NCBI RefSeq assembly: GCF_000384415.1
Contig: NZ_ARVU01000001.1
Coordinates: forward strand, 930,001 to 994,000
Length of the DNA stretch: 64,000 bases
Source of the DNA: Cycloclasticus pugetii PS-1
GTDB taxonomy: Bacteria; Pseudomonadota; Gammaproteobacteria; Methylococcales; Cycloclasticaceae
Direction: 5' to 3'
The notes below the pieces were generated by a model that ran no database searches, was not told the DNA's origin, and saw only the letters and a list, made by a program, of their open reading frames with translations. Of the stretch, positions 12,727-64,000 are shown piece after piece. The first letter of the stretch is position 1; every line of letters begins with the position of its first letter. The translations under genes were made by a program, and so were the position numbers.

Positions 12727-13575
12727 ATGATACTCAGTGCTTTTGCATTCAGCATCATGGCATTGTTTGTAAAATTAGTCGGTGATCACGGGATTCCTGT
12801 TTTAGAAATAGTTGCTGCGCGCTCGCTCATTTCATTGGTCATCAGTTACCTAGGGCTAAGGCGAGAAGGAATCGCAGTATTGGGTACACGTAAAGGCTTG
12901 TTGGCGGCACGCGGCTTAATTGGTTTTGCTGCCCTTATTTGTGTGTTTTATGCAATTACCCATTTGCCCTTAGCCGAAGCAATGGTTTTACAGTATCTGC
13001 ACCCTATGTTTACTGCGTTATTAGCACTGTTTTTTTTAAAAGAGGTGTTAAGAGTTGGCACGCTGGTATGTATTTTTTTAAGTTTTTTCGGCGTATTAAT
13101 TATAGTGCAACCGGACGTTCTGTTCTCTTCAACTACGGTTGATTTTGATTTTTTCACAGTGATGATTGCTATTGCGGGTGCGTTTGGTAGTGCCGTTGCC
13201 TATACCTTAGTTCGAGCCTTGGGGAAAACAGAGCACCCCTTAGTGATCGTGATGTATTTTCCGTTAATTTCCTTACCGGCTAGTCTGATTTTGCTATGGG
13301 GCGACTTTGTCATACCAGTAGGGATTGAATGGTTTTACCTACTAGCCATTGGGGTTGCAACCCAAGTAGGTCAGGTAGGTCTAACAAAAAGTATGCGCAC
13401 TGAATCTGCCGGCCGTGCTACAAGCTTTGGTTACTTACAAGTTGTTTTTGCGATGTTATTAGGTATGCTTTTTTATCAAGAATATCCAAGTCTAAATACC
13501 TTATTGGGGGCCGGTTTGATTATCATAGGCGCATACCTCAATCTCACTTGGAAAGAAAAAGTTAAGGAAATATAA
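12727..13575 (+). CDS. EamA-family drug/metabolite transporter
   Basis: Inner-membrane protein of the DMT superfamily, 282 residues from the first ATG, with two EamA repeats (about residues 1-130 and 140-275); substrate unknown. The start is uncertain: the reading frame continues upstream without a stop and encodes INAFLSIPLGIRY, which would complete the first membrane helix, and a CGGAG ribosome-binding-like sequence lies at 12677-12681. No in-frame ATG, GTG or TTG follows it, only ATC or ATA codons. The ATG at 12727 falls inside helix 1. The next gene, a parvulin, starts directly after the stop codon, so the two are probably one operon. Confidence 0.85.
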   Translation: MILSAFAFSIMALFVKLVGDHGIPVLEIVAARSLISLVISYLGLRREGIAVLGTRKGLLAARGLIGFAALICVFYAITHLPLAEAMVLQYLHPMFTALLALFFLKEVLRVGTLVCIFLSFFGVLIIVQPDVLFSSTTVDFDFFTVMIAIAGAFGSAVAYTLVRALGKTEHPLVIVMYFPLISLPASLILLWGDFVIPVGIEWFYLLAIGVATQVGQVGLTKSMRTESAGRATSFGYLQVVFAMLLGMLFYQEYPSLNTLLGAGLIIIGAYLNLTWKEKVKEI

Positions 13576-13854
13576 ATGGCAAAAGCATGTGCACGACATA
13601 TATTGGTTAAAACTAAGGAAGAGGCCGAGAGACTGAAAAAACAGTTGGCTGGTGGCGCTGATTTTGCAAATTTAGCTAAAAAGCACTCACAGTGCCCTTC
13701 AGCAAAAAAAGGCGGGGATCTTGGTGAGTTTAGCCCAGGTAAGATGCTAAAAGCATTTGATAATGTTGTTTTTAAAAAAGCATTGTTAACTGTTCATGGC
13801 CCCGTTAAAACGAAGTTTGGCTATCATCTTATTGAAACCATTTACCGGACTTAA
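13576..13854 (+). CDS. ppiC: Small parvulin-type peptidyl-prolyl isomerase (PpiC)
   Basis: Single-domain rotamase of 92 residues that catalyses cis/trans isomerisation of peptidyl-proline bonds in the cytoplasm; no signal peptide is visible. Family motifs are ARHILVK (start), GADFANLAKKHSQCPS, KGGDLGEF and the terminal FGYHLIE. Length equals E. coli PpiC (93 residues). The ATG immediately follows the stop of the transporter gene, suggesting translational coupling. Confidence 0.93.
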   Translation: MAKACARHILVKTKEEAERLKKQLAGGADFANLAKKHSQCPSAKKGGDLGEFSPGKMLKAFDNVVFKKALLTVHGPVKTKFGYHLIETIYRT

Positions 13855-13875
13855 TGATCAGAAAACTGTCAGATT

Positions 13876-14118
13876 ATGAAAATATTATTTAGTAAACCTC
13901 AGCAGTTGAGCGAGGAAAAAAATGTTGAGCTGGTGGCGCAATTGAGCGGTGTCTTGTCATATAAAAACCTTGATGATATGCATACTCACTTCTTATTAGA
14001 GTTGGACAATGAAACTGTAGAGTTTGATTCTATTAAGCAGTTGTTTAGTTTATTTGAGCAATGGAATATTGATCAAAGCCCGCTTGAATCTTTATTGCAG
14101 ATGGTTAATATGAAATAA
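13876..14118 (+). CDS. Hypothetical 80-residue protein
   Basis: I do not recognise this protein. It is acidic and soluble, with leucine-rich amphipathic stretches (LLELDNETVEFDSIKQLFSLF) and no cysteine, signal peptide or membrane segment. It begins 21 bases after ppiC on the same strand and ends 46 bases before an acyltransferase gene, so it is probably part of that transcription unit. No overlapping frame competes with it. Confidence 0.6.
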   Translation: MKILFSKPQQLSEEKNVELVAQLSGVLSYKNLDDMHTHFLLELDNETVEFDSIKQLFSLFEQWNIDQSPLESLLQMVNMK

Positions 14119-14164
14119 AAAAATCGCACTGGCTGATAGTTTTAATAAAAAAAGAGGGTCACTC

Positions 14165-15082
14165 ATGGCAACTCAAAAATTTAAATTAAGTTACCTGCAT
14201 CCTAAATATTGGCTAGCGTGGTTAGCGGTTGGAGTGAGCCGATGTATGGCTATTCTTCCGAGGTCTTGGCAGTTTAGCTTGTCAAAATGGATTGCGAATA
14301 GGCTGGCGAGTAAAGAAAATCGTCGCATTAGCACTATTCGACGAAATATTGACCGCTGTTTTGCTAATGAAACAGATGCTTATCGAGAGGAACTTGTTCG
14401 CGCTAATATCAAGTCATCAGCCTTAATGTTATTTGATTTGTTTAATATAATTTGGCGGCCACCCGCTGATATGACCGCTAACATTAAGGTTGTTGGTGAA
14501 GAATATCTAGAACAGGCGTTGCGTGCAGATAAACCTCTTTTGTTAGTCATTGGGCATTTTACGCCACTTTTTCACGCCATTAGTAAACTGAGTACCTTGG
14601 CCCCCTTTGACGTGATTTATAGGCGTATGAATAATCCAGTAATGGAAGCAAATTTGTATCAACGGGGTGCTGGGAAATACCCGATAACCTTATTCCATCG
14701 TAAAGATATTCGTAAAATGCTAGAAAAATTGGCTGATAACGGGACGGTTTTTATTGCACCAGACCAAGATTTTGGTGTCAGTCGTGGCGCATTCGTTTCT
14801 TTTTTTGGTATTCCAACAGCGACGATTACCACTATTCCACAATATGCCCAACAGACGAATGCGCAAGTGATGTTACTTAGCGCATATCGAGATGGTGAAA
14901 AAGGTTCTGTAATTGAGTTTGAGCCTGTTTTAGAGAATTACCCAACGGGTGATGATGTGGCGGATACGCAGCGCTGGACGGATTGGTTAGAAGAAAAAAT
15001 ACGTTTACATCCGGCAGACTATTTATGGATGCATAAGCGCTTTAAAACTCGGCCTAAGGGCGAACCTGGTTTTTATAAATGA
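14165..15082 (+). CDS. LpxL/HtrB-like lysophospholipid acyltransferase with altered active site
   Basis: Member of the lipid A biosynthesis (late) acyltransferase family, 305 residues, with a basic, membrane-binding N-terminus. In LpxL the catalytic dyad is H-x4-D/E. Here the block is GHFTPLFHAI: H131 is present, but the residue five positions later is Phe136, not an acid. Other family blocks remain (PDQDFG, FFGIPTATITT, YLWMHKRFKTRP near the C-terminus). The protein may use another residue, act on another substrate, or be non-catalytic. A sequencing change in the codon is also possible. The gene starts after a GAGGG ribosome-binding site. Confidence 0.85.
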   Translation: MATQKFKLSYLHPKYWLAWLAVGVSRCMAILPRSWQFSLSKWIANRLASKENRRISTIRRNIDRCFANETDAYREELVRANIKSSALMLFDLFNIIWRPPADMTANIKVVGEEYLEQALRADKPLLLVIGHFTPLFHAISKLSTLAPFDVIYRRMNNPVMEANLYQRGAGKYPITLFHRKDIRKMLEKLADNGTVFIAPDQDFGVSRGAFVSFFGIPTATITTIPQYAQQTNAQVMLLSAYRDGEKGSVIEFEPVLENYPTGDDVADTQRWTDWLEEKIRLHPADYLWMHKRFKTRPKGEPGFYK

Positions 15083-20144: not shown

Positions 20145-20693
20145 TTATAAAAATACGTTTAAACTTTTGTTCATAAAGATGTTTTGATCCAAAATAATTT
20201 TACGTTTGGCCAGTTTTAATTGCCCATCAACGCGACGTAAAATATCAGTACGATGACCAACCATTAGGTGTTCTTCATCTTCATTCATATTGCGGTTGAC
20301 CGTTGTTAATGAATACACTTTGTACTCATCTGGATTCTTTGTATGTTCAACCTCGATATTGCTGATAACATGAGAAGAGCGTGTGGCTGGGTCTTCAGAC
20401 CAACACGTTCCGGTATCATTTCGTAGAACTCGCCTTTTTAAGTTATGCATATCATCATTGTAATAAGCCATACCCTTCACGGTTGGTTCTACATGGTTTT
20501 TACGATAGCGCTGATAACGATAAGGCATCCAGTAGTGAATATCGTCGGTTAGGATACCCAACCAAGCATGAAATTCTTCGGTATCTAGTAAACGAGCTTC
20601 TTTATACAAAAACTGCTCAACCTCAAAAGTAAGCTCCATAGAGGCCGGTACTGGTGCTGCTACTGCTGCTGTTTTTTCTGATAAATTTGTCAT
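20145..20693 (-). CDS. Ring-hydroxylating dioxygenase beta subunit
   Basis: Small, structural subunit (182 residues) of the alpha3beta3 Rieske oxygenase, SnoaL/NTF2-like fold. Family features are VEQFLYKEARLLDTEEFHAWL near residue 25, DIHYWMP, and the C-terminal RKIILDQNIF segment. TAGGAG precedes the ATG. It lies 15 bases downstream of the alpha gene and 28 bases upstream of the extradiol dioxygenase gene, so the three are one transcription unit. Confidence 0.93.
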   Translation of the reverse strand: MTNLSEKTAAVAAPVPASMELTFEVEQFLYKEARLLDTEEFHAWLGILTDDIHYWMPYRYQRYRKNHVEPTVKGMAYYNDDMHNLKRRVLRNDTGTCWSEDPATRSSHVISNIEVEHTKNPDEYKVYSLTTVNRNMNEDEEHLMVGHRTDILRRVDGQLKLAKRKIILDQNIFMNKSLNVFL

Positions 20694-52663: not shown

Positions 52664-53734
52664 ATGCATATTTTATCCGTTGCTCTGATTGCTATTTTAG
52701 CCATCACTCTTAGTGCTTGTGGTGATGTATCGAATAGTCAACCATTAAATAAGCTCGTTGATGTAACTACTTTTTCATATCAACCGGCGACTCGTATTAT
52801 GGATTACCCAGGTCGTGTTCAAGCTCGATATCAAACTGAGTTATCATTCCAGGTAGAAGGTCGTTTGATTGAGCGCCTAGTTGAAGTTGGTGATGTAGTG
52901 CAAAAAGGTGACCTTATTGCAGTGCTTGATGCAAAAGACTATGCGTTGAGCAATGAAAGCTATTCCAATAAGAAAAAGGCTGCTGAAGCAGATTTACAAA
53001 GAGCTCAGCGTGATTTGGCTCGGGCTAAAGAATTACGTCAAAAGAAGTTTATTGGGCAATCCGAGCTTGATAAAGCGATTAATATTGAACGAGCCGCTTA
53101 TGCTGAATTAAACGTGATGAAAGCGGAATATGCTCAACGTGTGAATCAGCATGGGTATACGCAATTATTAGCCCCAGCAGACGGTGTTGTTATTTCACTT
53201 AGTAAAGAAGTCGGTGATGTGGTTAAAGCTGGCGCAGCCATTGCTATGTTTGCCTGGAAAGATGGTTGGGAATTTGTTACAGCGGTAGCAGAAAAAGAGA
53301 TTAATCAATTATCAATTGGTCAGTCAGTCAGCGTTACACTTTGGGCCTATGACGATAAAGAATATGCTGCATCAGTTCGTGAAATTAGCCCTATTTCAAC
53401 CATTAACGCCCCCTCGTATAGAGTAAAACTGAGTCTTAATGAGCAACCCAACGGGGTAAAACTGGGTATGACAGGGCATGCGTTATTTTCAATAAAAGAG
53501 GATCGTGTAGGCTTGTTGCCAACGTCTGCTATTGTTAAGAATGATGGTCAAATGATGGTCATGACCGTTGATTCAACGACAAAACAGGTTCGTGCTAAGC
53601 AGGTTACTCTGGGTCAATCACTAGCAGACCATGTGAGTATTGTTGATGGCTTAAAAGATGGCCAATGGGTGGTGATTGCTGGCGCTAATAAAATTGAAGA
53701 AGGTAATACGGTTAGAGTTTTAACCAATGAGTGA
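52664..53734 (+). CDS. RND efflux periplasmic adaptor (membrane fusion) lipoprotein
   Basis: 356-residue adaptor that links an RND pump to an outer-membrane channel. Lipobox LSAC (Cys19). The biotinyl-lipoyl halves (QVEGRLIERLVEVGDVVQKG and LLAPADGVVISL) flank a short coiled coil (about residues 95-165), followed by beta-barrel and membrane-proximal domains. It overlaps the pump gene by eight bases. No outer-membrane factor gene is adjacent. Confidence 0.92.
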   Translation: MHILSVALIAILAITLSACGDVSNSQPLNKLVDVTTFSYQPATRIMDYPGRVQARYQTELSFQVEGRLIERLVEVGDVVQKGDLIAVLDAKDYALSNESYSNKKKAAEADLQRAQRDLARAKELRQKKFIGQSELDKAINIERAAYAELNVMKAEYAQRVNQHGYTQLLAPADGVVISLSKEVGDVVKAGAAIAMFAWKDGWEFVTAVAEKEINQLSIGQSVSVTLWAYDDKEYAASVREISPISTINAPSYRVKLSLNEQPNGVKLGMTGHALFSIKEDRVGLLPTSAIVKNDGQMMVMTVDSTTKQVRAKQVTLGQSLADHVSIVDGLKDGQWVVIAGANKIEEGNTVRVLTNE

Positions 53735-56700
53735 TAAAGAGCGCATAAACCTCGCACGATGGGGAATAAAGCACTCACAGGTGCTGATCTATTTTATGGT
53801 TGTTATTTTGGTGGCCGGAACGTTTGCCTTTTTCAAGCTAGGGCAGCGTGATTTACCCGTTTTTGCAATTAAAACTATTGTGGTTAATGTGAAATGGCCC
53901 GGAGCGTCGGCAGAAGAAATGTCGCAATTCGTGACAGACCCCATTGAAACAAAATTACTAGAAGTGCCTTGGCTTCGCGAAGTCAGCTCGTTTAGTAAAC
54001 CGGGTGAGGCGTGGTTAATCGTTAATATTGAAGATTTTATGCCAAATGCCGCGATAGAGATGAAGGATCGTGCGTATGACATACGAAAAAAAATCAATGA
54101 TATTCAACACCGGTTGCCTGAAGGTGTTCAAGGTCCTTTTATTAATGATGAGTTTGGCGATATTTTTTCAATGGTGTACAGCTTCAATAGTGACGACTAC
54201 TCATTTGCGGATTTGAAAGATTATGCTGAGAAAGCGCGAAATGCTTTGGTGCGTATTGAGTCAGTGGAAAAAGCTATTTTATACAGCGTACAAAATGAAA
54301 AAATATTTGTAGAGATGGATGATAAGCGTATGTCGGCGCTGGGTTTAGATCCTTTGCAAATTGGTATGTTGTTGCAACAACATAATAAGGTGCAAACCAG
54401 TGGCCGAATAGAAGGCAAGCAGTCCTATTATAGGCTTAGCCTTAATGATCGTTTTCAATCCATTGACGATATAAAAAAACTGCCTATTAAGCTACAGGAT
54501 AATAGCGTTATATATCTTGAAAATATCGCCACTATTAGCCGAGGTTACGACGATCCCCCTGTATTCAGGATGCGTGTTAATGGTAACCCGTCTATTGGGC
54601 TAGGTATTACGATGCGTAAAGGCTATCAATTACTAACCTTGTCAGATGAGGTTAAGGCCACCATGGCAGAGTTTACAGAACAGTTACCCGCTGGTGTGGA
54701 GGTCGTTTTGGTGAGCGATCAGCCTAAATCTGTGCAAGCACAAATTAATCGGTTTTTGCTTAAATTATTAATAGCTGTTTTTATTGTATTGGTGGTTTGC
54801 TATTTCTCACTTGGGTTTCGTACCGGCTTTATCGTAGCGCTAGCCATTCCTGTGGTTTTGGGTTTGGTATTTGTCATGATGTCTATATTAGGAATCCCCC
54901 TTACCCGTACCTCTTTGGGTGCCTTAGTCATTGCACTTGGCTTGTTAGTAGATGATGCGATGATCGTGGTGGAATTAGTTCATGTAAAACTCGAGCAAGG
55001 TTGGGATAGGTTAAAAGCTGCTACCTATGCATATACTGCGACATCGAAACCGATGTTAAGTGGTACCTTAATTGCGGCCGTAGGTTTTTTACCAGTTTAT
55101 ATTGTCGATGCAGCACCGAATGAGATATTGGGTAATCTTTTTGTAGTGATTGGTGTGGCGTTAATTGCCTCTTGGATAGTGGCTGTTTTGTTAACCCCTT
55201 ATTTGTCTTTTAAATTGCTAAAGGTTGAACACCAGGGTAAGCAGCATATACAAACGGCTAATGTCGACAATTCGGCTATGTATCAGAGTGATTTTTATAA
55301 TCGGTTTCGCCGCTTAATCGCTTGGTGTATGTGTCATAACAAAACGGTACTAGGGGTCACGGCACTCTCATTCGTTTTGACCATATTTGGAATGCAGCAT
55401 GTAAAAATGGAGTTTTTTCCAGGCAATGATCGCCCTGAGGCACTGGTCGATGTCTGGTTCCCAGAGGGGACTAGCTACCATCAAATGGAGCGTCAGATCG
55501 CCGATGTTGAACGGTTGCTAGACGCACAAGATAATATTGAAAATTACCTTACTTATATCGGCGGGGATTCTTTGCGTGTACAGAATGATATGTACATAGA
55601 GCAACCTAATGCGAACTACAGCAAAATTATTGTGATTGCAAAGAACCTAGAGGCACGTGCACAAATAAAAACCTTGTTAAGCGACTATTTTGCAACACAT
55701 CAACCCAATGTGCGAACCCGTGTGTATAACCTTGTATATGGTTTACCGTTCAACTACCCCGTTCAATATTTAATCACTGGAAATGATGCTGAAAAATTGT
55801 CTGATATTTCTGAGCAATTAAAAGACATACTCAGAAATAATCCACAAACAAGAGATGTGCATGATAATCGCCGAGAAAAACGGGTGGTGGTAGATATTAA
55901 GCTTGACTTGCCCCGTGTGGCAGCTAGTGGGACTGATCCGGCTCAGTTGAGCAAAACACTCGGTGTTATGCTTAATGGCTTACCGGTGACTCAATATCGC
56001 GAGGGTAATGACCATATTGATGTTGTGCTTCGTAATGAATCGGAGAATCGTTATAACCTAGATCGAATTAATTATTTACAAGTGCCCTTAGGCAACGGCA
56101 CAACCGTTGCGTTGTCTGAGCTGGCAGATATCAGTTTGAAATTTGAAGAAGGTGTTATCTGGCGCTATAACGGATATCGTTCGGTGATTGTGCAGTCATT
56201 ATTGGAAGAGGGCGTGTTGAATTTTGATGTGGTTAAAGCGTTAAAACCACAGATAGATGAATTACGTGATTCATTACCTAGTGGTTATCGGGTTGAAGTG
56301 TTTGGAGAAGTGGATATCTCCAGAGAAGTTGATACACAATTAGCGAAAACAATGCCTTTTATGTTGATTGCGATACTTACCTTATTAATGTTTGAGCTAA
56401 ATAGTATAAAAAAAATGTTCTTAGTTTTAATGACGGTACCATTGGGACTAATTGGAGTTGTCTTTATTTTATTAGTATTGGACTTGTCATTTGGTCTAGT
56501 AGCACGGCTTGGCTTACTGGCCTTGGTGGGTATTATTATTCGAAATTCGATTATTTTAATGGATCAAATTGATCAAGATTTAGCAGCGGGTTCATCACCT
56601 TGGAATGCGGTATTGGAGTCAACTGTACGACGTGCTCGGCCGATTATTTTGACAGCCTTGGCAGCTATTTTCGCGATGATACCGTTGATTACAGATTATT

Positions 56701-56813
56701 TTTGGGGTCCAATGGCGATCACTATGATGTCGGGACTGTTAGTTGCGACCTTGTTAACATTGCTGGTATTTCCAACGATGTACGTGGCGTTTTTTAAGGT
56801 TAAAGGTCAGTAA
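53727..56813 (+). CDS. RND-family efflux pump, inner-membrane transporter
   Basis: 1028-residue proton-driven exporter with the AcrB/MexF-type layout: 12 helices and two large periplasmic loops. The charged pair in helix 4 (LLVDDAMIVVE) used for proton relay is present, as is the second-half RLGLLALVGIIIRNSIILMDQ block. With the adaptor it should expel a hydrophobic compound. Its position beside a TetR gene and aromatic oxygenase genes suggests it exports the substrate or a toxic intermediate; this is inference. Confidence 0.93.
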   Translation: MSDKERINLARWGIKHSQVLIYFMVVILVAGTFAFFKLGQRDLPVFAIKTIVVNVKWPGASAEEMSQFVTDPIETKLLEVPWLREVSSFSKPGEAWLIVNIEDFMPNAAIEMKDRAYDIRKKINDIQHRLPEGVQGPFINDEFGDIFSMVYSFNSDDYSFADLKDYAEKARNALVRIESVEKAILYSVQNEKIFVEMDDKRMSALGLDPLQIGMLLQQHNKVQTSGRIEGKQSYYRLSLNDRFQSIDDIKKLPIKLQDNSVIYLENIATISRGYDDPPVFRMRVNGNPSIGLGITMRKGYQLLTLSDEVKATMAEFTEQLPAGVEVVLVSDQPKSVQAQINRFLLKLLIAVFIVLVVCYFSLGFRTGFIVALAIPVVLGLVFVMMSILGIPLTRTSLGALVIALGLLVDDAMIVVELVHVKLEQGWDRLKAATYAYTATSKPMLSGTLIAAVGFLPVYIVDAAPNEILGNLFVVIGVALIASWIVAVLLTPYLSFKLLKVEHQGKQHIQTANVDNSAMYQSDFYNRFRRLIAWCMCHNKTVLGVTALSFVLTIFGMQHVKMEFFPGNDRPEALVDVWFPEGTSYHQMERQIADVERLLDAQDNIENYLTYIGGDSLRVQNDMYIEQPNANYSKIIVIAKNLEARAQIKTLLSDYFATHQPNVRTRVYNLVYGLPFNYPVQYLITGNDAEKLSDISEQLKDILRNNPQTRDVHDNRREKRVVVDIKLDLPRVAASGTDPAQLSKTLGVMLNGLPVTQYREGNDHIDVVLRNESENRYNLDRINYLQVPLGNGTTVALSELADISLKFEEGVIWRYNGYRSVIVQSLLEEGVLNFDVVKALKPQIDELRDSLPSGYRVEVFGEVDISREVDTQLAKTMPFMLIAILTLLMFELNSIKKMFLVLMTVPLGLIGVVFILLVLDLSFGLVARLGLLALVGIIIRNSIILMDQIDQDLAAGSSPWNAVLESTVRRARPIILTALAAIFAMIPLITDYFWGPMAITMMSGLLVATLLTLLVFPTMYVAFFKVKGQ

Positions 56814-56993: not shown

Positions 56994-57590
56994 ATGAAAT
57001 TATCGAAAGGATTGGATAAGAAAAATAAAATATTTGATGTTGCGTTAACGCTATTTTCAAAATATGGCTTTAAGGCAGTTACTATGAGAGAGATAGCTGC
57101 TAAATCATCGACCAGTCTCGGTTCCTTATATATTCACTATAAATCAAAGGCAGAGTTATATGACATGGTTTTAGACAGTGCTTACCTTGAGCACGCTAAA
57201 GCATGGCGAGTAACCTCTGATCCTGATGAAACTTTAGAAAGCAAACTGTACCGATTTATAAATAACTTTTGCCACTTTATGAATGATAACGTTGAAGTGG
57301 CGAAGCTTTTTAAACGTGAACAACTGGATGCTGATCCTAAGCGTATTAAGAAGCTTGCAGAGAAGGTATTATCCGAAGAATATAATAATTTAAAAGAGCT
57401 AGTGATAGAGGCTAACCCTACATGTCATGCAGATGTCACGACGGTTTTGATTTTTGGTATGGCACTAAATTATTATGAAACGATGGAATTTAGAAAATAC
57501 TTTCCTGGTTATGATGATTCCATCAATAGTCCAGATTTTATTGCAGAGCAAATATTTAATATGGCAATAGCGGGGCTTAAAAGTACGTAA
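56994..57590 (+). CDS. TetR/AcrR-family transcriptional regulator
   Basis: 198-residue regulator. The N-terminal TetR helix-turn-helix is clear (IFDVALTLFSKYGFKAVTMREIAAKSSTSLGSLYIHYKSKAELYDMVL, about residues 12-60, here cited only as a region); the C-terminal ligand domain is divergent. I start at MKLSKGLD; a TTG twelve codons upstream is in frame but unlikely. No ribosome-binding site is obvious. It lies between the RND pump genes and the palindrome array at 57938-58116, and is the likely binder of those palindromes. Confidence 0.88.
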   Translation: MKLSKGLDKKNKIFDVALTLFSKYGFKAVTMREIAAKSSTSLGSLYIHYKSKAELYDMVLDSAYLEHAKAWRVTSDPDETLESKLYRFINNFCHFMNDNVEVAKLFKREQLDADPKRIKKLAEKVLSEEYNNLKELVIEANPTCHADVTTVLIFGMALNYYETMEFRKYFPGYDDSINSPDFIAEQIFNMAIAGLKST

Positions 57591-57937: not shown

Positions 57938-58116
57938 TGAACAAATGTTCATTTTGATGTTGAAGTTATAAAAACACGCTGATAATATTTATGTGAACAA
58001 TTGTTCATATTGTTTTAAAAAAACATTTAATCCATAGAATATGGGGATGAACAAAAGTTCAAATAATTGTTGCGACGCAAAAAAACAGGTGGTAGGATTT
58101 AGTGAACAAGTGTTCA
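57938..58116. promoter_or_regulatory. Array of four TGAAC-N4-GTTCA operator-like palindromes
   Basis: Copies start at 57938 (TGAACAAATGTTCA), 57994 (TGAACAATTGTTCA, a perfect palindrome), 58048 (TGAACAAAAGTTCA) and 58103 (TGAACAAGTGTTCA). Centres are 56, 54 and 55 bases apart, so the sites recur at near-constant spacing. The last ends 117 bases before the extradiol dioxygenase start. Symmetry and length fit a TetR-type dimer, and the neighbouring TetR gene is the candidate. Confidence 0.75.
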
Positions 58117-58232
58117 TTTGAACTAGAAATGAAAAGGTAGATGTTAAGTATTAAGACTAATTAATGAATGGTTAACGAAAAAAGTTTCAAAATTTTAACG
58201 TTAAACATTTAATTTATATCAGCAGAGGACGT

Positions 58233-59147
58233 ATGAATTTAGATCAATTAACTCCATCCAGTTTGGGATATTTTGTTTTTAAATCCGATAAATTGGCGGA
58301 ATGGAACACTTTTTTAAAGGACCTAGTTGGTCTGCAGCTTAGTGACAAAAGTAGTGACGATCAACTTGCTTTTCGTATGGATAAGCAAGAACAACGAATC
58401 ATTATTGAAAAAGGGTCAGCAAATGATTTATCAGCAGTCGGTTGGGAATATGATAATGATCAATCGCTGAATGAAGTTGTTCTACATATAAAAGGAAAGG
58501 GTGTTGAGATTGTAAAAGCAGACCAGAAGTTTTGTGAAAGTAGGGGGATTAAGAAAGCCTATATATGCACAGACCCGGATGGGGTTGATCATGAACTATA
58601 TTATGGCGCATCGATTATCCCGATGAATGACAGTTTTAAATCGGATGTTTTGGTTGGGCAATTTTTAGCTGATCGTTTTGGTGCTGGTCACTATGTTGCT
58701 AATGCTGAAAATGTTGAGATGAGTCTTAACTTTTATAGGAATGTATTGTGTATTCGATTAAGCGATTATATCACCGGTGAGGTTTTTCCTGGTGGGCCAG
58801 TATTAGAAGCTACTTTTTTACATACAAAAACTGGCAGACACCATTCTGTCGCCTGTGCAAGTATCCCAATACCTAAAAAGCTACATCATTTTATGATCGA
58901 GTATGAAAATATGAATGACGTTGGTCTCGCTTTTGATCGCTTTAAAAAGGCTGATACACCTTTTTTTATGGAGCTTGGTCATCACCCAAATGATCAAATG
59001 TTTTCTTTCTATGTTCAAACACCCGATGGTTTTGGTTTAGAAATTGGTTGGGGCGGAATAATCATTGAAGAAGATAACTGGGAAGTTAAGACGTATTCCC
59101 AATTAAGTGATTGGGGTCATGTTGAACCTAGATCAAATGACAACTAA
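58233..59147 (+). CDS. Extradiol (meta-cleavage) dioxygenase, BphC-like
   Basis: Two-domain Fe(II) ring-cleaving enzyme, 304 residues. Iron ligands are H153 (GAGHYVAN), H219 (LHHFMIEY) and E270 (FGLEIGWG). It is the type I class, but clearly different in sequence from the enzyme at 19217. First gene of the operon; GAGGAC precedes the ATG. Together with the hydrolase two genes on it would turn a bicyclic diol into a ring-fission product. Confidence 0.92.
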   Translation: MNLDQLTPSSLGYFVFKSDKLAEWNTFLKDLVGLQLSDKSSDDQLAFRMDKQEQRIIIEKGSANDLSAVGWEYDNDQSLNEVVLHIKGKGVEIVKADQKFCESRGIKKAYICTDPDGVDHELYYGASIIPMNDSFKSDVLVGQFLADRFGAGHYVANAENVEMSLNFYRNVLCIRLSDYITGEVFPGGPVLEATFLHTKTGRHHSVACASIPIPKKLHHFMIEYENMNDVGLAFDRFKKADTPFFMELGHHPNDQMFSFYVQTPDGFGLEIGWGGIIIEEDNWEVKTYSQLSDWGHVEPRSNDN

Positions 59148-59163
59148 AAATTTTTTCAAAAAA

Positions 59164-59177
59164 TGAACGTCTGTTCA
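59164..59177. promoter_or_regulatory. Fifth TGAAC-N4-GTTCA palindrome, inside the operon
   Basis: TGAACGTCTGTTCA, with flanking A and T extending the arms (ATGAAC/GTTCAT). It lies between the extradiol gene and the Rieske alpha gene, 50 bases before the latter, suggesting an internal promoter under the same regulator. Confidence 0.65.
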
Positions 59178-59226
59178 TAAGTGTGTGAGTTTGGTAACAA
59201 ATTTGTATTAAGTTCTTTGGAAAATA

Positions 59227-60492
59227 ATGATGAGGGTGAATAAAGTGAATGAAAAAAATAAAGTAATTAATAGCTTGGATTGGAGTGACTCAACAAAAAT
59301 TCCATTTGAAGTTTATACAGACGAAAGTATTTATAAGCTTGAACAAGAAAATATTTTTCGTGGTGAAACCTGGAGTTTCGTTGCGCTGGAATCTGAATTA
59401 GCAGAAGCATTTAGTTATAAGTCGACATTTGTAGGTGATGTGCCTGTTGTCGCAACCCGTGATGATAAAGATAACTTCTATGTATGGGTTAACCGCTGTT
59501 CTCATAGAGGTGCAGAAGTTTGTAGAGAACGACATGGGAAGTCTGAAGATGGCGTTTTTACTTGCGTTTACCACCAGTGGGCCTTTGATGCGTCAGGCGA
59601 GTGTGTTGGGGTTCCTTTTCGTAAAGGCCATGGTGGAAAAGGTGGTTTTCCTAAGGACTTTAAGCCGAGTGACCGACCTTTACAAAAGTTAAAAGTTGAA
59701 AGATTGGGTGGGCTTATTTTTGCAAGTTTTGCTGATCAAGGGCCAACATTAGAGGAATACCTAGGCCCTCAAATGCTCAAAATGATGTTGAGGGTGTTAT
59801 GTAAGCCGATCGAATACCTCGGCGTGACTCGGCAATATGTTAATGCTAATTGGAAGCTATATACAGAGAACACTAAAGACCCTTATCACGCCAGTTTACT
59901 GCATCTTTTTCATGCCACGTTTGGTGTTTACCGATCTACGATGGGTGGTGGTGCTGAAATAGGTGGGCCGTTAAATATGCATAGCCTTCTTAGCGCCTAT
60001 GTTATTGAAAATGAAGATAAATCTGAGTACGAAAAAGGTGATTTAAGAACCTATGATACAGGTGTTAAGTTAGCTGATACCTCTGTTTTAGAAGTTACAC
60101 CAGAATTAGACCCAGTTTTTACCAATCATATCCAATCTATTTTCCCTTCAATGGTGTTACAGCAAATTCATAACACCTTGGCGGTACGTCAAATTATTCC
60201 TAAAGGTGTCGACGAATTTGAGTTGGTGTTCCATTTTTTTGGCTATGAAGATGATACCCCTGAATTAAGAGCTGAAAGAGTTAGGCAGATGAACTTAGTA
60301 GGCCCAGCGGGTTATATCTCTATGGAAGATGGTGAAGCCACTGAATTGGTTCAAAACGCCATTAAGGGTGATCCAAGTCATCATTCATTGATGGCAATGG
60401 GTGAAGACGGAGATGAAGGTACGTTGTTAACCGAGTCGATATTACGTGCCTATTGGAAAGGTTATCAGCAAATTATGGGTGTGACTCAGTAA
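59227..60492 (+). CDS. Rieske oxygenase alpha subunit, salicylate 5-hydroxylase/anthranilate dioxygenase type
   Basis: 421-residue catalytic subunit. Rieske ligands C91, H93 (CSHRG) and C113, H116 (CVYHQW); mononuclear iron D218, H221, H226 (KDPYHASLLH). The CVYHQWAF and ENTKDPYHASLLH blocks resemble NagG-type (salicylate 5-hydroxylase) and AndAc-type proteins more than naphthalene dioxygenases. The start may instead be GTG at codon 7 (59245), which has GAGGG at better spacing. Its beta subunit is two genes downstream. Substrate likely a carboxylated aromatic; inference from class. Confidence 0.9.
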   Translation: MMRVNKVNEKNKVINSLDWSDSTKIPFEVYTDESIYKLEQENIFRGETWSFVALESELAEAFSYKSTFVGDVPVVATRDDKDNFYVWVNRCSHRGAEVCRERHGKSEDGVFTCVYHQWAFDASGECVGVPFRKGHGGKGGFPKDFKPSDRPLQKLKVERLGGLIFASFADQGPTLEEYLGPQMLKMMLRVLCKPIEYLGVTRQYVNANWKLYTENTKDPYHASLLHLFHATFGVYRSTMGGGAEIGGPLNMHSLLSAYVIENEDKSEYEKGDLRTYDTGVKLADTSVLEVTPELDPVFTNHIQSIFPSMVLQQIHNTLAVRQIIPKGVDEFELVFHFFGYEDDTPELRAERVRQMNLVGPAGYISMEDGEATELVQNAIKGDPSHHSLMAMGEDGDEGTLLTESILRAYWKGYQQIMGVTQ

Positions 60493-60526
60493 AGGTTTAT
60501 TAATAATTAAATATAAGGATAAAGAG

Positions 60527-61351
60527 ATGAACGAAGCAGATTTTGAAACAAAATATATTGATGTTAACGGTGTTAAAACTTGTTATATAGAAGAAGGGCA
60601 AGGTGAGCCGGTCATTTTAATTCATGGTGGTGGAGCAGGTGCCAATAGCTACGGTAACTGGTTTGCAAGCCTGCCTCTTTTCGGTAAGAAGTTTAGAGCG
60701 ATTGCCATCGATATGATTGGCTTTGGTAAATCTGAAGGCCCTGCTGTCATTGGAGCGGACTGCTCACAAAAAACCCGCTATGACCATTTAGCTGGCTTTA
60801 TTAAAGCCATGGGGTTTGAAAAAGCAACATTGGTTGGAAACTCTATGGGTGGCGCAACGGCTATGGGTGTTGCGATTGAGTACCCAGAGCTTGTTGATAA
60901 ATTGGTGTTGATGGGAAGTGCTGGTCTCAATACAGAAATCTCAGAAGCATTGATGCCGATCTTGAAATATGACTTCACTAAAGAAGGTATGGTGAAAATG
61001 GTTCAAGCGTTAACCAATGATGATTTTGTTATTACTGATGAGATGATCGATTACCGTTTTGCCAACTCTATAGACCCGAGTAATAAAGAAGCTTATGGCA
61101 ATGTGATGGAGTGGATTAAATCTCAGGGAGGGCTTTTTTACGAGGATGAATACATTGCGAAAATCACCCAGAAAACATTAGTTGTAAATGGCAAAAATGA
61201 TCTGGTTGTTCCCTTAACTCACGCGCACAAATTTTTAGAATTAATTAATGATTCATGGGGTTATATAGTCCCTCATTGTGGTCATTGGGCGATGATTGAG
61301 CATCCAGAAGATTTTGCATCAGCGGTTAGCCAATTTATTGAATCTCACTAA
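60527..61351 (+). CDS. Alpha/beta hydrolase, meta-cleavage-product hydrolase type
   Basis: 274-residue alpha/beta-fold enzyme of the BphD/MhpC group that cuts the C-C bond of vinylogous 1,5-diketones from extradiol cleavage. Oxyanion region LIHGGGAGANS; triad Ser106 (GNSMGG), Asp225 (GKNDLVVP), His253 (CGHWAMIEHP). It lies between the alpha and beta subunit genes, an unusual order. Works logically after the dioxygenase at 58233. Confidence 0.9.
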   Translation: MNEADFETKYIDVNGVKTCYIEEGQGEPVILIHGGGAGANSYGNWFASLPLFGKKFRAIAIDMIGFGKSEGPAVIGADCSQKTRYDHLAGFIKAMGFEKATLVGNSMGGATAMGVAIEYPELVDKLVLMGSAGLNTEISEALMPILKYDFTKEGMVKMVQALTNDDFVITDEMIDYRFANSIDPSNKEAYGNVMEWIKSQGGLFYEDEYIAKITQKTLVVNGKNDLVVPLTHAHKFLELINDSWGYIVPHCGHWAMIEHPEDFASAVSQFIESH

Positions 61352-61367
61352 TTCGAAGGAAAATTAG

Positions 61368-61853
61368 ATGCCTAATATACCCTTAACCATAGAATTAAAA
61401 AGCGAAGTAGAACAACTGCTTAATAGCTATGTCCAGTGTATTGATGATGATGACCTTGAACATTGGCCAGACTTTTTCACGGAAGATTGTTTGTACCAAA
61501 TCATTCCTAGGGAAAACCATGAAATAGGCTTGCCAACAGCGGTGATCTGGTGCGATAGCCGTGGAATGTTAGCTGACCGTGTTACAGCTTTGCGTCATGC
61601 AAATGTATATCAAGTGCAGTGGTACCGTCACATTATTAGCAACCCAATGATCAGTACAGAAGACGGAGAGACCTTTCATGTGCAGTCTAATTATGCGGTC
61701 TTTAAAACATGTAACGACGGTGAAAGTAGCGTTTACAACGTGGGTCGTTATGTCGATGAAATAGTTCGTGATGAAGGGGTTCTTAAGTTTAAAAAGCGTT
61801 CTGCTATTTATGACACTCATCGAATTACGACTCTGATGGTTATCCCAATTTAA
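61368..61853 (+). CDS. Rieske oxygenase beta subunit (NagH/AndAd type)
   Basis: 161-residue NTF2-like structural subunit; motifs YVQCIDDDDLEHWPDFF and CDSRGMLADRVTALRHANVY are typical of salicylate-hydroxylase/anthranilate-type small subunits. It matches the alpha subunit at 59227, from which it is separated by the hydrolase gene. GAAGGA precedes the ATG. Confidence 0.9.
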   Translation: MPNIPLTIELKSEVEQLLNSYVQCIDDDDLEHWPDFFTEDCLYQIIPRENHEIGLPTAVIWCDSRGMLADRVTALRHANVYQVQWYRHIISNPMISTEDGETFHVQSNYAVFKTCNDGESSVYNVGRYVDEIVRDEGVLKFKKRSAIYDTHRITTLMVIPI

Positions 61854-61900
61854 ACCTAAGCATCACTTGTAATTTAAATTTAATTTAAAAGGAAAATGTT

Positions 61901-63073
61901 ATGGATCAAAGTGAAAGAATTTTAGTCAACGAAGAGGTCGTGAAAAAGAACAAGTTATGGCCGAACTTTATTAAGGCCAAGCTGGGGTTTAGAAACCATT
62001 GGTACCCCGTCATGTTCGGTAAAGAAATAGAAGAGGGCAAGCCTGTTAAGGCGATGTTATGTGGTGAAAACCTATTACTCAACCGAATTGATGGAAAAGT
62101 TTATGCCATCAAAGATAGGTGTTTACACCGAGGTGTTGCCTTTTCTAAAAAGCCTGAGTGTTATACAAAAGAGACCATTACCTGTTGGTATCATGCTTGG
62201 ACGTATCGATGGGACGATGGCTCGTTATGCGACATTATGACGGACCCTAAAAGCGATATGATTGGTAAGCATCGTCTTAAAACGTATACCGCGCAAGAAG
62301 CAAAAGGGCTTGTATTTATTTTTCTCGGCGATATTGAACCTACCCCTCTGATTAATGACGTACCACCTGGGTTTTTAGATGAAGGGCGTGCGATTAGAGG
62401 CATTAAACGAGAAGTTGGGTCAAACTGGAGAATCGCTGCTGAAAATGGTTTTGATTCAACACATGTTTTTATTCATAAAGACAGTAAGTTAATACCAAAC
62501 AATGAGACCGTTATTCCATTAGGGTTTGCGACAGATCGTGAAGAAGAAGCAAAAGGCACCTTATGGGAAGTAGTTAATAACGAAGACGGACCTAAGGGTG
62601 TTTACGATAATATCGGCCAGCATGCGGTTCCCGTCGTTGAGGGTAAAGTAGATGGTGAAACAGTTCTTCGTCCGGTTATTGGTGGTGATAAACGCATAGC
62701 CAACCAAATCTCAATATGGATGCCAGGCGCCCTTAAAGTAGACCCCTTTCCAGACCCTTCATTGATTCAATTTGAATGGTATGTGCCAAGAGATGAAAAC
62801 TCACATTGGTATATTCAAACGCTTGGTAAAGAAGTGGCTAATGAAGCTGAAGAGCAAGAGTTTGAAAAAGATTTTAATGAAAAGTGGGAAGACTGGGGGC
62901 TACGTGGCTTTAATGATGATGATATTTGGGCCCGTGAAGCGATGGAAGAGTTTTACAAGGATGACTGGGGTTGGATTAAAGAACAGTTATTTGAGCCAGA
63001 TGGAAATATAGTCGCGTGGAGACAGTTAGCCAGTGAAGCAAATCGCGGTGTCCAAACACTAGAAGATTTATAA
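61901..63073 (+). CDS. CarAa-like Rieske oxygenase (carbazole 1,9a-dioxygenase terminal component type)
   Basis: 390-residue single-subunit Rieske oxygenase. Rieske ligands C74, H76 (DRCLHRG) and C95, H98 (CWYHAW); mononuclear iron D185, H188, H192 (ENGFDSTHVFIH) with a later acid in GFNDDDIWAREAM. From memory the spacing matches CarAa of Pseudomonas (C69/H71/C90/H93, D180/H183/H187) with a constant +5 shift, and long stretches read alike (KLGFRNHWYPVMF, NRIDGK, QFEWYVP). CarAa enzymes are alpha3 and need no beta subunit; they perform angular or monooxygenation of carbazole-like rings. No CarB-type genes are adjacent. Substrate not established. Confidence 0.88.
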   Translation: MDQSERILVNEEVVKKNKLWPNFIKAKLGFRNHWYPVMFGKEIEEGKPVKAMLCGENLLLNRIDGKVYAIKDRCLHRGVAFSKKPECYTKETITCWYHAWTYRWDDGSLCDIMTDPKSDMIGKHRLKTYTAQEAKGLVFIFLGDIEPTPLINDVPPGFLDEGRAIRGIKREVGSNWRIAAENGFDSTHVFIHKDSKLIPNNETVIPLGFATDREEEAKGTLWEVVNNEDGPKGVYDNIGQHAVPVVEGKVDGETVLRPVIGGDKRIANQISIWMPGALKVDPFPDPSLIQFEWYVPRDENSHWYIQTLGKEVANEAEEQEFEKDFNEKWEDWGLRGFNDDDIWAREAMEEFYKDDWGWIKEQLFEPDGNIVAWRQLASEANRGVQTLEDL

Positions 63074-63085
63074 CTGGGTGATCAA

Positions 63086-64000
63086 ATGAGCACACTCAAT
63101 AATGATGCTTTAGACGAACTGTTTGATAGGCGCCCCGACGACGGTATCTACAAGGTTAACCGACGTGTATATAACGACCCCGCTCTTTACGAGCGGGAGT
63201 TGGAGAGTATTTTTGAAGGGTCTTGGATATATGTCGCGCATGAAAGCCAACTACCGAATAAAGGGGACTTTGTTACAGTCACCATGGGTAGACAGCCTGT
63301 CATTATTAACCGCGATATGAATGGGCAAATTAATGGTTTCATCAATGCTTGCCCACATCGGGGCGCACGTTTATGTAGAACAGAACGGGGTAATACGAAA
63401 AGCTTTATATGCACCTATCATGGTTGGGCATTTGCTAGTGATGGTGAAGCAAAATGGATTCAGCGAGAAGAAGAGGGCTATCCCGAGCTGCTTGATCATA
63501 AGAATGACGTCGGCCTAAAACATGTTGAGAAAGTAGAAAGTTATCGTGGCTTTATCTTTGCAAGCCTATCTGCAGATGTTCCTACCTTAGATCAGCATTT
63601 ATTGGGGGGTAAGGCTTATATCGATATGTTGGTTGACCAGGCGCCGAACGGGCTAGAAGTGTTAAAGGGCAGTTCGAGTTGTGTTTATAAGGGTAATTGG
63701 AAACTGATGCTTGAAAATGGCGGTGGTGATGGATTACACCCAGATTATGCACACAGCTCGCTATTAAAAGTAGCCGATCGAAAATTGCAAAGAAGCACTG
63801 CAGTTCAGACCATGCAGGTTTCAAAAATGTATGAGCAAGTTGGTGGGCAGTGGGCTTTTGGTAATGGCCATACTGGCATTTGGTTTAATTTTCCAAACCC
63901 TGAAGACAGACCGGCTTATAAGCATTTGGCTGAACTAAGTAAAGCGTACGGAGAAGACAGAGCTCATTGGATGACCGGTGTGTTTCGTAATCTATCTATC
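63086..64000 (+). CDS. Rieske oxygenase alpha subunit, third in the operon (cut by window end)
   Basis: 305 codons are visible and the frame is still open at the window edge. Rieske ligands C89, H91 (CPHRGARLC) and C109, H112 (CTYHGW); mononuclear iron D215, H218, H223 (GGGDGLHPDYAH). The start RRVYNDPALYERELESIF and the CPHRGARLC block resemble benzoate/toluate/anthranilate (BenA/AntA-type) dioxygenases. Twelve bases separate it from the CarAa-like gene. A beta subunit and reductase may follow beyond the window. Confidence 0.88.
   Translation, partial: MSTLNNDALDELFDRRPDDGIYKVNRRVYNDPALYERELESIFEGSWIYVAHESQLPNKGDFVTVTMGRQPVIINRDMNGQINGFINACPHRGARLCRTERGNTKSFICTYHGWAFASDGEAKWIQREEEGYPELLDHKNDVGLKHVEKVESYRGFIFASLSADVPTLDQHLLGGKAYIDMLVDQAPNGLEVLKGSSSCVYKGNWKLMLENGGGDGLHPDYAHSSLLKVADRKLQRSTAVQTMQVSKMYEQVGGQWAFGNGHTGIWFNFPNPEDRPAYKHLAELSKAYGEDRAHWMTGVFRNLSI

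Follow-up and report, generated by a model that had tools for sequence, protein, structure and literature searches.

Palindromic sites, very probably the operators of an adjacent TetR-family protein, at an aromatic-degradation operon of Cycloclasticus pugetii PS-1

Among described regulators, RolR comes closest to the system considered here. RolR is the TetR-type regulator of resorcinol catabolism in Corynebacterium glutamicum, and one of its operator elements, REP1, is reported to be TGAAC-N4-GTTCA (PMC9210681; PMC3086911). BioQ of C. glutamicum, a TetR-type repressor, shares the TGAAC half-site and recognizes TGAAC-N3-GTTAC (PMC9210681). KstR of mycobacteria is a TetR-type repressor of ring-degradation genes that uses a 14-bp palindrome, and its operator overlaps promoter elements (PMC1995591). 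Within the genus Cycloclasticus, the CRP/FNR-family proteins DPR-1 and DPR-2, with c-di-GMP as effector, activate PAH operons of Cycloclasticus sp. P1 (PMC8547461). We have analyzed a 64,000-nucleotide stretch (hereafter the window) of the genome of C. pugetii PS-1, a marine oil degrader, in which TGAAC-N4-GTTCA occurs four times between a tetR gene (56994-57590) and an aromatic-degradation operon, and a fifth time between the first two genes of that operon.

Palindromic sites and genes of the locus

The genes surrounding the palindromes, in window coordinates, are as follows.

56994..57590, + strand: TetR-family regulator gene, 198 aa, presumed palindrome binder (Pfam TetR_N, E=7.9e-13)
58233..59147, + strand: two-domain extradiol dioxygenase, BphC/HsaC-like, 304 aa
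59227..60492, + strand: Rieske ring-hydroxylating oxygenase large subunit, closest to AndAc, under the equivalog cut-off
60527..61351, + strand: alpha/beta hydrolase, HsaD/BphD-like
61368..61853, + strand: ring-hydroxylating oxygenase small subunit, AndAd-like
61901..63073, + strand: Rieske oxygenase with homotrimeric ring-hydroxylase domain
63086..64000, + strand: further Rieske dioxygenase large-subunit gene, start only

The N-terminal helix-turn-helix of the tetR product is recognized as a TetR_N domain with 48.4 bits against a Pfam cut-off of 24, and the aromatic gene cluster runs on beyond the end of the window. The adaptor and permease genes of an RND efflux pair (52664-56813) immediately precede tetR in the same orientation; no palindrome stands before them, and they may be a separate transcription unit. 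Some 18 kb downstream from the array, the wider aromatic region also holds a CRP/FNR-type regulator gene (L055:12526-13194), beside an hcp-like (hybrid cluster protein) ORF at 13284-14954.

The palindromes themselves are the following.

57938..57951, no strand: O1, putative operator, TGAACAAATGTTCA; about -50 from predicted promoter P1
57994..58007, no strand: O2, putative operator, TGAACAATTGTTCA; about +6 from predicted P1
58048..58061, no strand: O3, putative operator, TGAACAAAAGTTCA; about -50 from predicted promoter P2
58103..58116, no strand: O4, putative operator, TGAACAAGTGTTCA; about +4 from predicted P2
59164..59177, no strand: O5, putative operator, TGAACGTCTGTTCA; follows the bphC-like gene and precedes the Rieske alpha gene

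The original prediction had reported four palindromes and a fifth copy, and its positions are exact (57938, 57994, 58048, 58103 and 59164), as are the spacings of 56, 54 and 55 bases that it gave for the array, measured here from start to start. The genome-wide search that it proposed for TGAAC-N4-GTTCA returned five exact matches in 2,383,924 bases, all of them at this locus; a reversed control pattern returned one match in the same genome. Simulations based on the intergenic region's own dinucleotide content yielded 0.001 expected sites per 642 bp and never at least two sites in that length (0 of 200,000 simulations). Therefore, the presence of four sites within 179 bp is not due to chance. 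Tandem Repeats Finder did not detect the array. Six of the eight distinct sites, which come from three species, fit the longer form TGAACA-N2-TGTTCA, so each half-site probably comprises six bases. The prediction that no site lies upstream of tetR also held, the best match there to the extended form carrying 4 mismatches. The sole one-mismatch match in the window (20160-20173) falls within a coding ORF, at its 3' end, and a different extradiol dioxygenase gene comes next; this match was set aside as probably fortuitous because orthologous loci do not retain it.

Association of the palindrome with tetR across Cycloclasticus

Comparison of 18 Cycloclasticus genomes identified orthologues of the tetR product, besides the window's own (100%), in NAT157 (97% identity), NORP271 (79%) and NORP92 (65%) alone, and the palindrome stands beside tetR in all four of these genomes. 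It is absent from the loci of TetR relatives with 41-43% identity, and operons that contain bphC homologues (54-66% identity) and lack this tetR have no intergenic palindrome. The background matches that were examined in other genomes belong to ORFs or to a terminator-like hairpin. The recognition-helix segment GSLYIHYKSK is common to the orthologues, while one aligned 43% relative (L059) reads SSLYHHFPSK. Since the genomes share ancestry, this co-occurrence represents few independent events, although its direction is consistent. Taken together, these comparisons suggest that the palindromes are very probably operators of the TetR protein encoded at 56994-57590 and that they mark this operon. 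One observation counts against such an assignment. In the NAT157 tetR (L056:7795-8570, equivalent to window 56994-57590), a homopolymer that follows the first codons is one A shorter and the gene reads frameshifted, possibly through an assembly error or as a recent pseudogene, and NAT157 nevertheless retains all four sites. Separately, NORP271 encodes a 41%-identical TetR relative (L052:3672-6052) whose divergent neighbor is homologous to a gene from the downstream cluster of the window. The palindrome is absent there, and this relative may have its own operator.

Occupation of the sites by a CRP/FNR-family activator was considered in light of the same comparisons. The PrfA box is TTAACA-N2-TGTTAA. 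The 14-bp palindromes at this locus resemble it in length and symmetry class and share its upstream position, and DPR-1 and DPR-2 are proven regulators of other PAH operons in Cycloclasticus P1 (PMC8547461). However, TGAAC-N4-GTTCA is found at no other operon of the genome, the other PAH operons included. The CRP/FNR gene about 18 kb from the array is present in genomes without the sites, survives as a remnant in NAT157 and was not found in NORP92 or NORP271, and the one CRP/FNR gene detectable in site-bearing NORP92 is orthologous to one in every genome compared. Judging from these sequences, the CRP/FNR genes that could be compared (proteins of two of the six genes) do not track the sites, and we regard a CRP/FNR-family occupant as very unlikely.

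Another unlinked regulator, such as a LexA-like or IclR-type repressor, could be invoked because of motif likeness. The LexA-like motif is GAAC-N4-GTTC, and the IclR-type group-2 motif is TGRAACA-N1-2-TGTTYCA (PMC13273656). Yet a LexA regulon would place sites elsewhere in the genome, where none exist, and the sites here lack the two additional outer bases of the IclR consensus. As tetR adjoins the sites in 4 of 4 genomes, we give such unlinked regulators scarcely any credence.

Spacing, predicted promoters and single-site relatives

NAT157 is about 99% identical to the window at this locus and contains all four sites, with spacings of 56, 54 and 54. A deletion of about 3.7 kb (window ~58152-61860; L056:9128-9136) has removed its bphC-like, Rieske alpha, hydrolase and small-subunit genes and joins the array directly to the second Rieske gene (61901..63073). 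Neither the operators (0 of 56 bases) nor spacer 1-2 (0 of 42) differ between NAT157 and the window, while the 40-bp spacer 2-3 (58008-58047) carries 7 substitutions plus 2 indels that cancel in length; the 347 bp upstream hold 2 differences. The burst of change, at 9 of about 40 positions, is very local and leaves the length as it was.

The more distant relatives are organized differently. NORP271 has the same gene order as the window with a single site before bphC (L057:1181) and a single site before the Rieske alpha gene (2285), and NORP92, which lacks bphC at this locus, has one site before the Rieske alpha gene (L058:8660). O5 is the equivalent of the palindrome that precedes the Rieske gene in both. 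The original prediction had named relatives keeping the operon without the repeated sites as a finding that would tell against it, and NORP271 is such a relative; its question whether spacing is kept in relatives is answered in favor of conservation by closely related NAT157 and against it by the single sites per promoter of NORP271 and NORP92. The fourfold array is thus specific to the window-NAT157 lineage, since these two relatives hold single sites. A survey of 369 gammaproteobacterial genomes, a sample that excluded NAT157, contained no pair of exact sites 30-60 bp apart beyond the window's own. In these loci, the common state is one putative operator per predicted promoter, and the regular array is not a conserved unit.

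A simple consensus promoter scan found no promoter in the region. A sigma70 weight-matrix scan, whose matrix frequencies are approximate, gave two candidates within the array.

57960..57988, + strand: P1, predicted promoter, TTGAAG-17-TAATAT, start about 57995; second best in the array
58070..58098, + strand: P2, predicted promoter, TTGCGA-17-TAGGAT, start about 58105; the region's top score

Neither score exceeds the shuffled-sequence maxima, so the scores alone are not significant. The P2 hexamers are retained in NAT157, and the O1-O2 segment containing P1 is identical there. A further weak candidate in spacer 2-3 (TTTAAA-15-TAGAAT) was dropped as its -10 element is destroyed in NAT157. For window P1 and P2, NORP271 A, NORP271 B and NORP92, the palindrome centre lies at -49.5 to -51.5 from the start of the best or near-best predicted promoter. 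Each agreement has a chance of 2-5% in shuffles of the region shown, with the qualifications that the offset was noticed after scoring and that the cases represent two or three independent origins rather than five. The -50 promoter of NORP271 A is the best in the nearest 240-330 bp and is outscored by another across the full 465 bp. NORP271 B, the site before the Rieske alpha gene, is followed by a near-consensus TTGACA-17-TAATAT; the corresponding promoter after O5 seems to have decayed in the window, as though its role had passed to the upstream array.

The array can be parsed into two related operator-promoter-operator units, O1-P1-O2 (57938-58007) and O3-P2-O4 (58048-58116). Spacer 1-2 resembles spacer 3-4 (1 of 500 shuffles was as good), spacer 2-3 is like neither, and the single NORP271 site with its downstream sequence resembles the window's O1 unit and spacer 1-2 (z=3.0). 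The likeness of the two outer spacers and the confinement of change to spacer 2-3 fit a promoter-unit duplication with a free middle spacer.

The original prediction had read the regular spacing as cooperative assembly of one regulator along the DNA. On such a reading, TetR dimers on the four sites would touch directly or through DNA bending and build a single higher-order complex, giving the operon a sharp switch. Near-constant intervals of 54-56 bp, which NAT157 keeps through balanced indels between sites 2 and 3, favor such a complex, and an EthR octamer is reported to bind a 55-bp operator cooperatively (cited in PMC9210681). On the other hand, the intervals correspond to 5.33, 5.14 and 5.24 turns at 10.5 bp, rotating successive sites by about 50-120 degrees; with non-integral turns, the sites do not share one helix face. 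Known cooperative TetR operators are contiguous, whereas here no contiguous or overlapping dimer sites of the QacR/EthR type were found and neighboring palindromes are separated by 40-42 bp, more than a TetR dimer covers. The single sites per promoter in NORP271 and NORP92, and the lack of a second such pair in the 369 genomes, also argue against it. The TetR protein is thus very likely the regulator, as originally predicted, on the strength of its co-occurrence with the sites, while cooperative assembly along the DNA is not favored given the turns, the gaps and an array confined to the window and NAT157. We consider it distinctly improbable, and the predicted promoters would account better for the ~55-bp spacing.

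We therefore prefer an explanation, held as a whole with moderate confidence, in which the palindromes are operators through which the adjacent TetR protein would control the aromatic-degradation operon locally. Most likely it would repress P1 and P2, as well as any promoter at site 5, until binding of an aromatic compound, either a substrate or an intermediate of the pathway, released it from the DNA. The basic unit would pair a sigma70-type promoter with an operator whose centre lies about 50 bp upstream, and both the bphC-like gene and the Rieske alpha gene would be preceded by one such unit. In the lineage of the window and NAT157, a further operator may have arisen close to the transcription start of the first unit, and a recent local duplication of the resulting operator-promoter-operator unit may have followed, giving tandem P1 and P2 with an operator on either side of each. 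The ~55-bp rhythm would simply reflect how long an operator and a promoter are together. Two further points count against this explanation: tetR has no site of its own, and -50 is not the commonest position for a repressor site.

In the main alternative, the TetR protein is an activator that aids RNA polymerase at P1 and P2 from about -50, with the +4 and +6 sites being a duplication by-product or serving feedback. In its favor is the conserved operator position upstream of the -35 box, and not over the start, in all three lineages. However, a promoter as close to consensus as that of NORP271 B would need to be repressed, not activated; the additional sites of the window cover the predicted starts, as is typical for a repressor; and characterized TetR proteins are in their majority repressors. 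Activation is accordingly judged unlikely. It is also fairly improbable that a TetR protein placed at about -50 on two duplicated promoters, and either activating or cooperatively filling four even sites, has made the response of a simple one-site switch steep or threshold-like, with NORP271 representing the single-site ancestor.

Relation to known regulatory systems

To the original prediction the architecture had looked undescribed. This applies to the arrangement and not to the motif, since the same palindrome is reported for RolR; given that precedent, the motif, the regulator family and the type of target are not novel. A description of the motif in Cycloclasticus was not found in the open-access literature searched. 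The locus supplies a defined and testable operator/regulator pair for a Cycloclasticus aromatic operon in a genus where the control known so far is by the CRP/FNR-type DPR proteins. Relatives with one, two and five sites provide a natural comparison of the effects of operator and promoter duplication on a catabolic switch, and the operator/TetR pair could, given a known ligand, become an aromatic biosensor part.

The likeness to RolR consists in TetR-family control of an aromatic-catabolism operon and in a REP1 identical to the motif found here. The RolR operator is reported to span 29 bp, to be bound by a pair of dimers and to include a second palindrome, REP2 (TTCAT-N2-ATGAA), whereas the present sites are about 55 bp apart. 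Inspection of the O1-O5 flanks showed none that continues from TTCAT into N2-ATGAA, and no entry named RolR appears among the best 60 of 221 solved-structure matches (E up to 10) to the TetR protein. BioQ differs by a spacer of 3, another second half-site and its biotin genes. KstR differs by its palindrome (TAGAAC-N2-GTTCTA), large regulon and autoregulation, in contrast to the single-locus regulon and the tetR without a site of its own seen here. DPR-1 and DPR-2 resemble the present system in that they control ring-hydroxylating oxygenase operons of Cycloclasticus locally (PMC8547461); they act on other operons, with no sign of action at the array locus. Set beside these systems, the locus is an ordinary catabolic operon under TetR control, and its arrangement of sites is a modest variant confined to one lineage.
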